Program-made: the position numbers and the translations under genes
The notes under the pieces: generated by a model
What the model was told of the DNA's origin: nothing
Seen by the model: the letters and a program-made list of their open reading frames with translations, nothing else
Databases searched by the model: none
Shown: piece by piece, positions 42,860 to 53,278 of the stretch
How the letters are laid out: every line of letters starts with the position of its first letter
How positions within the stretch are numbered: the stretch's first letter is position 1
Assembly (NCBI GenBank): GCA_028689205.1
Contig: JAQTWP010000002.1
Span: forward strand, 62,001 to 126,000
Length of the DNA stretch: 64,000 nucleotides
Reading direction: 5' to 3'
From: Candidatus Altimarinota bacterium
Lineage (GTDB): Bacteria > Patescibacteriota > Gracilibacteria > BD1-5 > UBA2023

Positions 42860-42944
42860 GCCCGAATGGTGGAATTGGTAGACACGCGGGACTCAAAATC
42901 CCGTTCCGCAAGGAGTGAGGGTTCAATTCCCTCTTCGGGCACCA
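42860..42944 (+). tRNA. tRNA-Leu (anticodon CAA)
   Basis: The cloverleaf has acceptor arms GCCCGAA / TTCGGGC, an anticodon stem CGGGA / TCCCG with loop CTCAAAA (anticodon CAA, reading UUG), a long class-II variable arm TTCC-GCAA-GGAG and a T arm GAGGG-TTCAATT-CCCTC. The discriminator base A and CCA are encoded. Its last 21 bases recur at 43113-43133, the mark of an integration or transposition site. Confidence 0.96.
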
Positions 42945-42945
42945 A

Positions 42946-42992
42946 AAGAATTAAAAAACTCTCGTTTGAAAAAACGAGAGTTTTTAATTCTT
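42946..42992 (+). terminator. Long palindromic terminator after tRNA-Leu
   Basis: The near-perfect inverted repeat AAGAATTAAAAAACTCTCG / CGAGAGTTTTTAATTCTT has a T-run within its 3' arm and immediately follows the tRNA CCA end. Confidence 0.85.
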
Positions 42993-43133
42993 GGTAGTCC
43001 GGAGAGGGAATTGAATAGAGGGGTAAAAATGTGAAACATTTTTAAGGAGACAATGATTTGTCTCCTGACCCCGGCCCGTCTCTGGCAAGGAGCGATAGCG
43101 ACTGGGGAAGAACAATTCCCTCTTCGGGCACCA
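42993..43133. mobile_element. 141-bp element with terminal inverted repeats derived from the tRNA-Leu 3' end
   Basis: The right end (43113-43133) is an exact copy of the last 21 bases of tRNA-Leu including CCA. The left end (42993-43013) is a degenerate inverted copy, with AGAGGGAATTG identical to the complement. Between them are two strong hairpins, AAAAATGT / ACATTTTT and GGAGACAA / TTGTCTCC, enclosed by GGGGT / ACCCC. There is no coding sequence. It resembles a small non-autonomous element or a folded recombination site. Its class is unknown to me. Confidence 0.6.
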
Positions 43134-43154
43134 TAAAGATATTAAATCATTTTT

Positions 43155-43190
43155 GTCACCAATACTTGGCGTATTGGTGACATTTTTTAA
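43155..43190 (+). terminator. Hairpin terminator before the lipase gene
   Basis: The perfect inverted repeat GTCACCAATAC / GTATTGGTGAC is followed by a T-run, downstream of the tRNA-derived element. Confidence 0.85.
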
Positions 43191-49492: not shown

Positions 49493-51997
49493 ATGAAAAC
49501 CTCAAACCCAAAATACCGCTATGGTTTCACATTAGTGGAATTAATAACAACCATAACAATACTTGCAGTAATAGCAATTGTAGGATTCACTTATGCTAAT
49601 AATTACAAGCTTTCTGAATATAATGTTCGTCGTAAGGCTGATATGGGATTTCTTAATGCTACGATGAATTCGTATATGGCAGTTAAGAAAATATATCCAA
49701 ATCCTGCTGGTAATAAGCAATATTATGATGAGTCTTGAGTATATGCTCATTCTAGTTCTTGAGCTTATTGAGTTAGTTGATTCATTACTAGTGAAGTTCT
49801 TGGTAAACAGTTCTTGTCAGTTATACCCAAAGATCCTTTGACTAATAATTTTTATGCCTATGCTAGGACACTTTGAGAAGTTCCTACTTATCAATTAGCT
49901 ACAGCTTTTAATACTAAGTGAACTTACAATGCTTACGTGAAATGAACTTATCCTGGAGATGATTTATCTTGAATTATCAAGGAATATAATTGACCTAATT
50001 TTGTACTTAATGGTTCTTCTAGATATCTTCCCTACAATACATCAGAAGTTAAGCTTGTTGGTAAGATAGTCTCTTATTCATGAGTAGTGAATGTAACTAG
50101 AGAATCAGTTGATGTTGGTACAGATACAGACCTAGTAGAGTGAGACAAGGTGGTAGTTAATTCTTGATGATTGGCTACAATTTATCTATCAGATGGAAGT
50201 GAATTAAAGCTCTGAAGTACAACTAAGAATTCTTTATTAGATATGAATGATCTTAAGTACAAGGAAGATAATAATCTTCTTACTCAAGTATCACTTAAAT
50301 TAGTTCTATGAGAGATATGGGTAAAAGCACCAGAAATGGAAACTTGATCAGAATTCACTATTGAAACATCTAATGCTGCAGCTTCGGTGAGATGAACTGT
50401 ATTCGGGATGACAACTGATTGAGCAAGTTGAACTGGAACAATTGAATTAATTGAATGAAAACTGGAATTGCAGAAAGTGAATTGAACAGAGTTAAGTTCT
50501 AATTTTAATGTATTGTCATCTGGTACACCTTGAGTGAATCTGATTGATTCTACAACTACTTGAGCATTAAGAAAAGAAACTATTGATTGAGTATCTAAGA
50601 CTATTATGGAAGCTCTTCCTGGGAATCCTATTAAGATAAGCTATACGGTTAGTGTTGATGATTGAACAAGTTCTTTAACTTCTTGATTTACTTGAACAAT
50701 TACTGAAGTTAAGATAAAAGAAGTTATGGAAGAACAAGTTGGTCTTAATGAATGATACCTACCTAAGTTAAGTTACTTGAATAAGACTTTGACTTGATTA
50801 TTATTGGGTATAGAGAATATGAAAGGTAATTATTATGAGGTTAAGTTATGAAGTTGATATACGTCTTCTGGATCAGTAGATTCTAGTTCATGAGTAATTA
50901 ATGTTGATATTAGTTTTAGTGGTGCTAATGAACATTTGAATCTTGCTGATGAGCTGAACTTGGTTTGGAGGATATGTAGTCTGAGTAATAGTTGAATTGA
51001 GAATAATATTTCAGTGGATTGAGAAGAGATTTATCCGAATCAGAGAATGATTAGTAATCTATTGTTCAGGAAGTATAATCCTACGATAAGTAGAAGTTTT
51101 GATGGTTCAAGGAATAATATAATTCAGAAATATAGCAATATTTGTTCTAGTTGGTCTACTCTTGGGATATCACCTAATCCTATATCATGAACTAAGGAGG
51201 ATATATATTGGGAAGTTGGTGATGAGGTTGTAGCGGATGTGGAGGTTGATAATAATAATTGATGTTTAGCTACTGAGTACATGTCAGAAATTACTGATGA
51301 ATGTGAAGATGAAGTTGATTGAATGAAGTTAGTTGGGTTTGCTGGGTTTGATAGTGTTGGGGATTTGGGAATGAGTATATGAAGTAATACAGTAAATAAA
51401 ATTACACCGATTCAATGAAATATAATTTGAAATACTGTTTCTTATAGTGCAGATATAACTAATGTAACTTCATATAATACTTGAAATTCATTCGTAACAA
51501 TGAACAATTGAACCAAATGAATATTCATTGACAATAACTGAACTGATGACTTACTCAAATATGATATTTCTTCGATATTATGAACAAATGCAACAGCTTC
51601 TTGATTTGCTATAGAGATGAGTGTGAGAGGTGGGGCTTTGAAGAGGAGTAGTGGAACTTATTATTTATATAATGTTTCTTTGTTAGATTGAAAAAAAATA
51701 TATCTTGAAAAATATAATTGAAATTTGATTTTATGATATTATTATTCTTCTTATTATAATAATCTAATTCTTATTAGTAATTCAAATTTTGATAATTTAG
51801 AAGATAATACATTTTATAAAATAAAAACTATTTTTAATTGAACAGAGTGGAAAATGGACATAGTTAATACTTCTATAAATTGATTATCAAATACTTGAAT
51901 AATTTCAAATCCAGCTGACATATATATATGATCAAAAGCTACTCAAGAAAATCAATGGAATGATATAATTGATTATTTAAAAATTTACAGATATTAA
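49493..51997 (+). CDS. Pilin-like surface protein fused to FecR-like and LamG-like domains
   Basis: This 834-residue protein has a type IV pilin/pseudopilin N-terminus: a short leader and the GFTLVELITTITILAVIAIV prepilin motif with Glu5 after the Gly cleavage site. After about 220 residues of pilin-like head comes a FecR-like domain (GDKVVVNSGGLATIYLSDG ... VSLKLVLGEIWVKAPEM ... ASVRGTVFGM). The C-terminal 200 residues look like a LamG/concanavalin-type jelly roll, ending IIDYLKIYRY. It is far longer than ordinary pilins. The two Fic genes follow directly, so surface binding and Fic activity may be linked. Confidence 0.85.
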
Positions 51998-52002
51998 TTC
52001 AA

Positions 52003-52665
52003 ATGAAAGAAAAAATATTAGAAAGTATTATTTATGCCATGAATCATTATCTTGAAGAATCTTTATGAAGAGTTTCTCTAGATAAACATGAGCAAATGAA
52101 AAAAATGTTTTTTATGCACATGGAACAAATAACAAATTATTGTATTAATAAATATATTAACAAATGAGAATTAAGTGAAGAATTTATTAAATGACTTCAT
52201 AAAATTATTTATCCGCCAGATTATAGACAATATATTACAAATAATAAATGAAAACAGGTGTTATATATGCAACCTTGAATTTACAAAACAATTAATAACA
52301 GTATTTTTAATTATGTATTAAATAAAGAAGTAGATTTTATAAAACCAGAATTAGTTAATATTAAAATGAAACAATTATTAATTAATTTTAATGAAAATAT
52401 AAAATTAGAAGAAGATAAATATGATGTAATATTAAATTTTTTATTAGATTTTGGTAAAATACATCCATTTTGAGATTGAAATTGAAGAATAATTACTATT
52501 TTAATTGATTTATTTTTAATACAATTTAATTTAGAACCATTAAATATAACACAATTGAAAGAAAAAGATATGAAATGATTTTATTATTCTATACAAAAAT
52601 CAAGGATTGAAAGAGATTTATTTTATTTAAAAGAATTTATTAGGAATGTATCAAGAAACAATTAA
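52003..52665 (+). CDS. Fic-domain protein with intact active-site motif
   Basis: This 220-residue protein has the Fic core motif HPFGDGNGR (His154 onward), which agrees with HxFx(D/E)GNGR. Fic enzymes use the His to transfer AMP or another nucleotide part to hydroxyl side chains of target proteins. Most glycines in the motif are TGA codons. It starts five bases after the pilin-FecR-LamG gene and its 3' end overlaps the next Fic-like gene by 20 bases. No obvious inhibitory (S/T)xxxE(G/N) helix was found. The target is unknown. Confidence 0.88.
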
Positions 52666-53278
52666 ACAAACATTATTACCAAGATTTAACCATCTGTCTT
52701 TGTGAAAATCTGATGAAATCATAGATAATATGCGAAATGGTTTTGAGGCTCATATAAGATTAATGAGTGATTATTTCAAGTCATATAATAATTTCCCAGA
52801 TAAATTAGATATGGATTTATTTGTATGATTTCATAAATTACTATATCCCACTTGATTCGAAATAAAAGCTATATGAAATGATTGAATTAGTCACATAATG
52901 TATCCTTGAGAATGGAGAAAACAATATTTTGTAAAACAAATTACAAATTTTACAAAAGTCGAAGAAATTGAAAAGGATTTTCAAAAAATAATAGATAATT
53001 TTAATAGTTTAGAAAACAAAACTAGAGAAGATATTTTAAGATTTTATCTTGATTTTGGTAAAGTTCATCCCTTTTGAGATAGTAATGGAACAGTTTCTGC
53101 TATAATCTGTGATATTTTATGTGTATATTATAATTTTAAACCTCTTGAATTATTAAAAATAAGATTTAATAAAAAAAATAATCTATTTTCTTTAATTTCT
53201 GAATATGAAAAAGATGATTCAAATGAAAATTTATCAAAAATACTTGTGTTAATTGATAAATTCAATGGAACGATATAA
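52646..53278 (+). CDS. Fic-like protein with degenerate motif
   Basis: This 210-residue paralogue of the previous protein has the motif HPFGDSNGT at residue 141: the second Gly of the loop is replaced by Ser and the terminal Arg by Thr. The Arg normally contacts the nucleotide phosphates, so the protein is probably catalytically altered or a regulator. Shared features include the YPPDYRQY/YPGEWRKQY-type segment and the overall helix pattern. It overlaps the first Fic gene by 20 bases, implying coupled translation and a possible pair. This is an inference from the layout. Confidence 0.8.

Follow-up and report, generated by a model that had tools for sequence, protein, structure and literature searches.

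A small unit in a Gracilibacteria genome lies between the CCA of an intact tRNA-Leu(CAA) gene and the sequence that follows it; its two arms are copies of tRNA 3' ends, and its interior folds into a branched structure. The window analysed here is a 64,000-nt stretch of that genome, which is 1.25 Mb in size and in which UGA is read as glycine (translation table 25 yields long frames). Units of the same anatomy occur behind many kinds of tRNA. Their ends depend on the host tRNA, their single-strand folding is conserved, related genomes provide occupied and empty sites, units stand in tandem, and spacers and cores are shared at different tRNAs. With confidence a little above even, the units are read as gene-less insertion cassettes on tRNA 3' ends, which would be moved in trans via a folded single strand.

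The locus is built as follows, in window coordinates.

42860..42944, + strand: tRNA-Leu(CAA), intact, with encoded CCA, the host gene of the unit (ARAGORN; Rfam RF00005, 61.3 bits)
42945..42991, + strand: spacer of the unit, with a terminator-like hairpin AAAAACTCTCG...CGAGAGTTTTT (sequence)
42992..43013, + strand: left arm, an inverted copy of a tRNA 3' end (arm-versus-tRNA comparison)
42992-43000, + strand: outer part of the left arm, complement of the tRNA-Glu(CTC) 3' end (tRNA comparison)
43003-43013, + strand: inner part of the left arm, complement of tRNA-Leu (tRNA comparison)
43014..43112, + strand: core AATAGAGGGG...GGGGAAGAA, common to other copies (own-genome search; models R1 and R2)
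43020..43072, + strand: P2 stem, 43020-43023 with 43069-43072, enclosing P3 and P4 (fold, covariation)
43025-43032 with 43036-43043, + strand: P3 (fold, covariation)
43045-43053 with 43058-43066, + strand: P4 (fold, covariation)
43079..43108, + strand: P5 region with conserved CGTCTCTGGC; 43079-43082 pairs with 43104-43108 (alignment, covariation)
43113..43133, + strand: right arm, an exact copy of tRNA-Leu positions 56-76 including CCA (sequence)
43134..43188, + strand: sequence behind the unit, with a second terminator-like hairpin GTCACCAATAC...GTATTGGTGAC and a T run (sequence)

The sequence-only reading had taken the right end for an exact 21-base copy of the tRNA-Leu 3' end with CCA, and this is what 43113-43133 proves to be. 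Over tRNA-Leu positions 59-76 the agreement is 18/18, and the best of 32 other tRNAs reaches 15/18 over the same stretch. The left end, described as a degenerate inverted copy, is indeed imperfect, and it is also composite: the inner part follows tRNA-Leu, while the outer nine bases fit tRNA-Glu(CTC) alone, with 8/8 over eight scored bases. Derivation of this outer part from any tRNA other than Glu was rejected (at most 6/8; 33 tRNAs compared). A terminator-like hairpin lies between tRNA and element, in agreement with the earlier statement that the element follows the tRNA terminator. The sequence at 43134..43188 would be the native flank of the tRNA, by analogy with the comparisons made in relatives. 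No listed reading frame lies between the tRNA-end repeats (42945-43112, <200 bp).

Elsewhere in the window, two adjacent frames at 51880-53278 (table 25) carry the motifs HPFGDGNGR and HPFGDSNGT, which are presumably Fic-domain signatures. An 834-aa frame at 49493-51997 starts with GFTLVELITTITILAVIAIVGF, which is taken to be a pilin-like N-terminus motif.

The genome of the window holds further copies of the long type, and a chance origin of the unit is thereby excluded. An own-genome search found a second copy behind tRNA-Glu(CTC), with 83% identity over 115 query bases; the alignment extends slightly into both arms, and both arms of this copy are copies of the Glu tRNA end. The covariance model R1 was built on six seeds, two copies misaligned in P5 in the first MAFFT alignments being excluded. 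It finds four long-type copies, behind Leu-CAA, Glu-CTC, Gln-CTG and Gln-TTG, with the model starting 51-64 nt behind the tRNA. The ends of the three copies outside the window fit their own tRNA. Other copies, which the sequence-only reading had proposed to look for by their ends, exist, but a fixed end sequence common to them is not supported; the ends follow the host tRNA instead.

A model-free test, which looks for a second occurrence of the tRNA's own 3' end within 350 nt, identified nine tails at 33 own-genome tRNAs (33 of the 37 Rfam tRNA matches were covered), each scoring above the control tRNAs. Five of the nine, all outside the window, are of a shorter type (Ser-GCT, Leu-GAG, Lys-TTT, Ser-TGA and Pro-TGG), in which the copy of the own tRNA 3' end begins 70-113 nt downstream. 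The motif GTTTAT occurs in four of these five, and a GCTCGG..GCGAAGCGGA stretch in two. Neither R1 nor R2 reports the shorter tails in this genome; perhaps they are a second subtype, nearer to the RtT repeats of Escherichia coli discussed below.

The wider distribution was followed with R2, a covariance model from 47 sequences in which tRNA adjacency plays no part. It matches 26 of 77 genomes of the order (E<=1e-3). In a draw from the class, 21 of 288 genomes match (E<=1e-4), G078 being the single one outside the order; among 46 genomes reached via other loci, the sole match (E<=0.05) is in the one identical to genome G024. For the statistics, 84 loci, each selected for a model match, were rescanned; 95 of 97 matches, in 27 genomes, were kept, and two antisense matches (L397, + strand; L353, - strand) were dropped. 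A same-strand tRNA lies at most 80 nt upstream in 72 of the 95, comprising 29 anticodon kinds, and the gap from tRNA to element is 44-71 nt in 65 of these 72.

The ends of the units change with the host tRNA. The right arm agrees with its own tRNA at 15/20 or better in 51 of the 72 copies and at 20/20 in 31, and 5% of 5,088 control comparisons with other tRNAs reach 15/20. The left arm fits at 9/9 in 35 of the 72 (control, 0.9%). Both the tRNA adjacency and the agreement of the arms speak for the cassette reading. Against it count the 21 right arms that fall below 15/20, and the 23 of 95 matches that are without a near tRNA. Some of these 23 are second units of arrays, and several retain a tRNA-like CCA at their end; in none was an antisense tRNA detected nearby. 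A looser search of viral and genome contigs with the pattern CGTCTCTGGC-N{2,30}-GAAGAAC was discarded, since the matches listed were mostly from unrelated genomes; among the 80 genome matches listed, two are from Gracilibacteria (L181, L203). The literature, searched mostly as listings and with most subscription papers outside reach, yielded no description of this Gracilibacteria family, nor of RtT-like units outside Enterobacteria and Pasteurellaceae.

Occupation varies between relatives. Tails were called at 11/36, 9/34, 3/31 and 5/31 tRNAs in four congeneric genomes, and at 9/33 in the genome of the window, with a threshold (at least 13/18 and above every control) that undercounts: the Arg-TCG copy of G020, for example, is a model match but fails the census. 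Several of the calls, at 13/12, are borderline. Empty-site versions, for which the sequence-only reading had proposed a search, do exist, and six occupied/empty pairs were aligned between congeneric genomes. The native flank follows the element in five of the six, in favour of a cassette. In these informative pairs (Leu-CAA, Leu-TAA, His, Ser-GCT and Leu-TAG), the native flank scores 30, 38, 44, 39 and 41 against the post-element sequence, and 10.5, 6.5, 14.5, 6.5 and 11.5 against the spacer. The unit therefore consists of spacer, left arm, core and tRNA-end copy, with a length from CCA to CCA of 145-179 bp in the five pairs, and the spacer with its terminator belongs to the unit rather than to the tRNA. 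The spacer tests covered those 65 of the 72 copies in which at least 40 nt separate tRNA and element; 45 of these spacers contain a terminator-like hairpin (shuffled mean, 1.9).

Several of these comparisons are less favourable to a cassette. The sixth, at Arg-CCT, failed and is uninformative. The two species of the His pair, one occupied and one empty, differ in the tRNA itself as well. At Leu-TAG of G020 (L402) a native-like terminator precedes the element, so that the order of terminators is reversed with respect to G024. Furthermore, exact deletion between the two tRNA-end copies leaves the same empty sites, and gain is thus unproven at single loci.

Sharing of units between tRNAs, and presumably their movement, is supported by spacers and by nearest cores. 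Five pairs of spacers behind different tRNAs score 49, 43, 33, 30 and 28, where the maximum among 2,000 shuffled pairs is 18; in G006 the spacers of Leu-GAG and Leu-TAG are nearly the same, as are those of Tyr and Lys in G018, and similar ones occur across genomes. Scores of 18-25 may reflect terminator composition only, which counts against the cassette reading. The nearest core belongs to the same genus but another tRNA in 37 of 72 copies, many of which are related by descent, a kinship that the permutations ignore. This result and the shared spacers both favour a cassette, as do the tandem units that G007 has at Leu-CAA and Ser-GCT. At Leu-TAG and Ser-GCT of G006, the block of tRNA end, terminator and left arm recurs after the core. 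Three contigs of G007 (C20, C61 and C175) end in or near units; tandem copies behind tRNA-Ser probably break the assemblies.

The fold described by the sequence-only reading, two hairpins inside a GGGGT/ACCCC stem giving a branched structure, is borne out. In the window, P1 is formed by the arms, a GGGG/CCCC stem encloses the two hairpins, and the fold has z = -7.8 as RNA on the + strand and z = -6.5 as DNA on the minus strand, with 0 of 200 shuffles as good on either. Eight copies were folded singly; seven have z between -3.7 and -6.6, and the eighth (L019, z = -1.1) is no better than shuffles, a point against the cassette reading. Across a 47-row alignment P1-P5 covary and 92.3% of cells pair, the alignment being fitted to the structure of the model and leaning towards it. 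Double-change cells number 355 against a shuffle mean of 96, a value reached by none of 500 shuffles, which is in favour of a cassette; sliding the partners lowers the covariation score from 0.53 to 0.11 or less.

The use of wobble pairs differs between the stems. Over 95 rows, G-U makes up 1.0% of paired cells in P2, 2.2% in P3 and 0.7% in P4, a further point for the cassette reading; in 108 tRNAs from five of these genomes it makes up 9.1% in acceptor stems and 5.4% in T stems. The near absence of wobble in P4 is thus unlike the tRNA stems of the same genomes. P1 has 5.5% G-U. In P5 the proportion is 13%, and G-U exceeds A-C by 34:5, which is RNA-like and counts against a cassette. This wobble pattern makes the tRNA-sense strand look like the folding one.

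The arms themselves carry two kinds of history. In G024, the right arm of the Cys unit fits the tRNA-Cys end of the congener G020 and not the present tRNA of G024. It may preserve the tRNA end that was present when the unit was inserted, provided that the tRNA gene has not been replaced since, and this favours the cassette reading. The His copies of three species, whose right arm tracks the tRNA's own differences, count against it: some process must keep arms and tRNA alike, and simple drift after insertion would not give such tracking.

The unit comprises a spacer (mostly 45-70 nt, usually with its own terminator), a left arm that repeats the T-arm half of the tRNA 3' end in inverted orientation, a folded core, and a right arm that repeats tRNA nucleotides 57-76 with CCA in direct orientation. 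Its place is between the CCA of the tRNA and the native downstream sequence, so that the tRNA remains intact and termination is resupplied. Movement would proceed in trans as a folded single strand, with the P1 stem rebuilding the T-arm/acceptor segment of the target. On insertion, the right arm would be taken from the target and the left arm from the source, the latter being adjusted later from the inside outward. The chimeric left arm of the window suggests such a course, as if the unit had come from a Glu locus and its arm had been rewritten from within.

The closest known counterpart is the RtT RNA (rttR; Rfam RF00391), the 178-bp repeats of the tyrT-tyrV locus of E. coli, a long-known and unexplained oddity of this tyrosine-tRNA locus. 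It is annotated as the non-coding RNA rttR, which ends at the CCA of a tRNA-end copy. The order in E. coli is tRNA-Tyr, spacer, GGGGAAGGATGAGAA (an inverted T-arm), P2 with two hairpins, tail, and a 19/20 copy of the tRNA end; three units lie behind tyrV and one between tyrT and tyrV. In the Gracilibacteria units, too, a spacer follows the tRNA, the left arm is an inverted T-arm, P1 surrounds P2 with its P3 and P4 and a 3' tail comes next (as judged by eye), the right arm copies the tRNA 3' end with CCA, and units stand in tandem. They differ in their core, in the 29 host anticodons and in the frequent terminator-like hairpins of their spacers. RF00391 gave no match at E<=10 in ten Gracilibacteria loci, with four E. 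coli copies scoring 133-138 bits alongside, and none in the window at Rfam gathering scores. In the reverse direction, R2 run with filters off on the E. coli locus (L411) scores 9.3 bits at best (E 0.17), with the RtT copies at ranks 1, 2, 4 and 6 of 13. Since membership fails by sequence, the Gracilibacteria units are regarded as a variant of the RtT kind outside RF00391.

Within the order of Photorhabdus (G305), RF00391 matches are present in 53 of 247 genomes (E<=1e-3), 35 of them over the cut-off. The right-arm test was applied to 31 RtT loci, 29 from this search and two of three others, the third (L414) being read by eye and outside the scoring. Three loci dropped out, one at a contig start with nothing upstream (L429) and two without a tRNA within 900 nt. 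The hosts at the 28 remaining Enterobacterales loci are Tyr, Pro, four kinds of Ser, and Lys, and the right arm agrees with the host tRNA at 17/20 or better in 23. The scripted count was 22 of 28 before correction of L436, which belongs to a tRNA-Lys that its right arm fits and not to the neighbouring Val tRNA. Comparisons with other tRNAs also reach 17 in 13.5% of cases, since the same ends are common to many of those tRNAs. The block of tRNA end, terminator and left arm is repeated after the core in Photorhabdus, as in G006. A Xenorhabdus locus (L413, genome G306) has a degenerate third tRNA-Lys body that runs from the T-loop straight into an RtT-like core; its RF00391 match is weak and below the Rfam cut-off. 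Relatives of RtT occur in Pasteurellaceae, according to PMC4986893, and some rtT-like sequences of Enterobacteria are linked with BIMEs, according to PMC2965389.

The main rival of the cassette is a small RNA. The units would then be RtT-like non-coding RNA genes, read through from the tRNA promoter. Enzymes of tRNA processing would recognise the tRNA-like CCA end and cut the RNA out, which would function as a small RNA, and the spread of the units would reflect gene duplication and turnover. The shared anatomy and the annotation of rttR argue for this, as do RtT-family RNAs detected by Northern blot in Actinobacillus according to PMC4986893, where release from tRNA operons is also cited. In Gracilibacteria, all 72 near-tRNA matches are on the tRNA strand, the one covered by the upstream search, and the G-U excess of P5 points the same way. 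Nevertheless, a terminator-like hairpin precedes the element in most spacers, which argues against obligatory read-through; P4 and P3 are almost wobble-free, and tails differ between congeneric genomes. A small RNA gene is on this balance judged unlikely, and the answer may be mixed, a mobile unit with RNA as its active form. A passive origin is improbable. Template switching and slippage at the palindrome of the tRNA T-arm during replication, with no dedicated mobility or function, would account for the almost perfectly Watson-Crick hairpins of P2-P4, for arms that track the neighbouring tRNA and for tandem units. It does not lead one to expect a P2-P5 architecture and sequence conserved across genera, or cores and spacers common to different tRNAs, and the near-constant spacing is unexpected from local slippage alone.

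Remnant att sites of ordinary tRNA-integrating islands or prophages would explain a direct repeat of the tRNA 3' half from the T-loop, which many tRNA att sites have. This origin is very improbable for units that measure ~110-210 bp, have an inverted arm, fold in a conserved way and are present several times in one genome. Furthermore, no integrase was recognised by eye among the frames adjoining the window copy, and integrase counts do not follow the copies: PF00589 is found in 23 of the 27 family genomes independently of copy number (copies/PF00589 hits: 12/1 in G024, 8/1 in G018, 0/4 in G001). A dedicated tyrosine recombinase is therefore unsupported, which also counts against the cassette reading. 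The sequence-only reading had suggested three options: a transposable unit of miniature size, a target of att type, or a recombination site formed by a folded single strand. Given the other copies, the conserved folding and the empty sites, a mobile, folded, tRNA-anchored unit fits; any identified recombinase is unsupported.

A test for phage origin found the exact P4 22-mer in two viral contigs, where R2 is weak (27.0 bits) and no tRNA was found in the two loci. These contigs are GC-rich and carry the P4 hairpin GAAAGCCAACGATTTGGCTTTY at ~470-568 on the - strand (L524/L525). The same hairpin occurs in Aminobacter/Mesorhizobium plasmids (L538-L541), and an annotated site-specific integrase gene overlies it in four of five plasmid hits. 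R2 scores at the viral and plasmid matches are 19.7-27 bits.

With the RtT anatomy present in a distant candidate-phylum lineage, where 29 kinds of tRNA serve as hosts and sites are seen both occupied and empty, RtT looks like one case of a general tRNA-anchored unit. The questions of how units move and whether they are RNAs become directly testable. Such units could also account for the repeated pieces of tRNA ends near tRNA genes, and their tandem copies probably cause assembly breaks. It is possible, although on balance doubtful, that they form a new class of mobile elements not confined to one phylum, with members in Gracilibacteria, in Enterobacterales (as RtT) and possibly in Rhizobiales. 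Such gene-less cassettes would use the host tRNA 3' end, rebuilt as the stem of a folded single strand, as a rewritable attachment site, their ends being rewritten at each insertion; they would bring a terminator, keep the tRNA working, and build integron-like arrays without genes.

Other known systems share single traits with the units. In integron attC sites and in hairpin attP sites of the CTXphi type, a folded single strand recreates a duplex recombination site. The units resemble them in idea only, that of a folded-strand site and of cassettes that stack at one anchor; unlike attC cassettes they are gene-less, no integrase is tied to the copies, and they are anchored on a tRNA 3' end. REP/BIME and IS200/IS605-derived hairpin elements are likewise small, non-coding, structured repeats, thought to move in trans, but they are not known to carry copies of a host tRNA as ends. 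Islands that integrate at tRNA genes also have the 3' half of the tRNA as a direct repeat, which begins in the T-loop, whereas the units combine it with an inverted left arm and a conserved multi-hairpin core, carry no cargo, and are present in several copies per genome.
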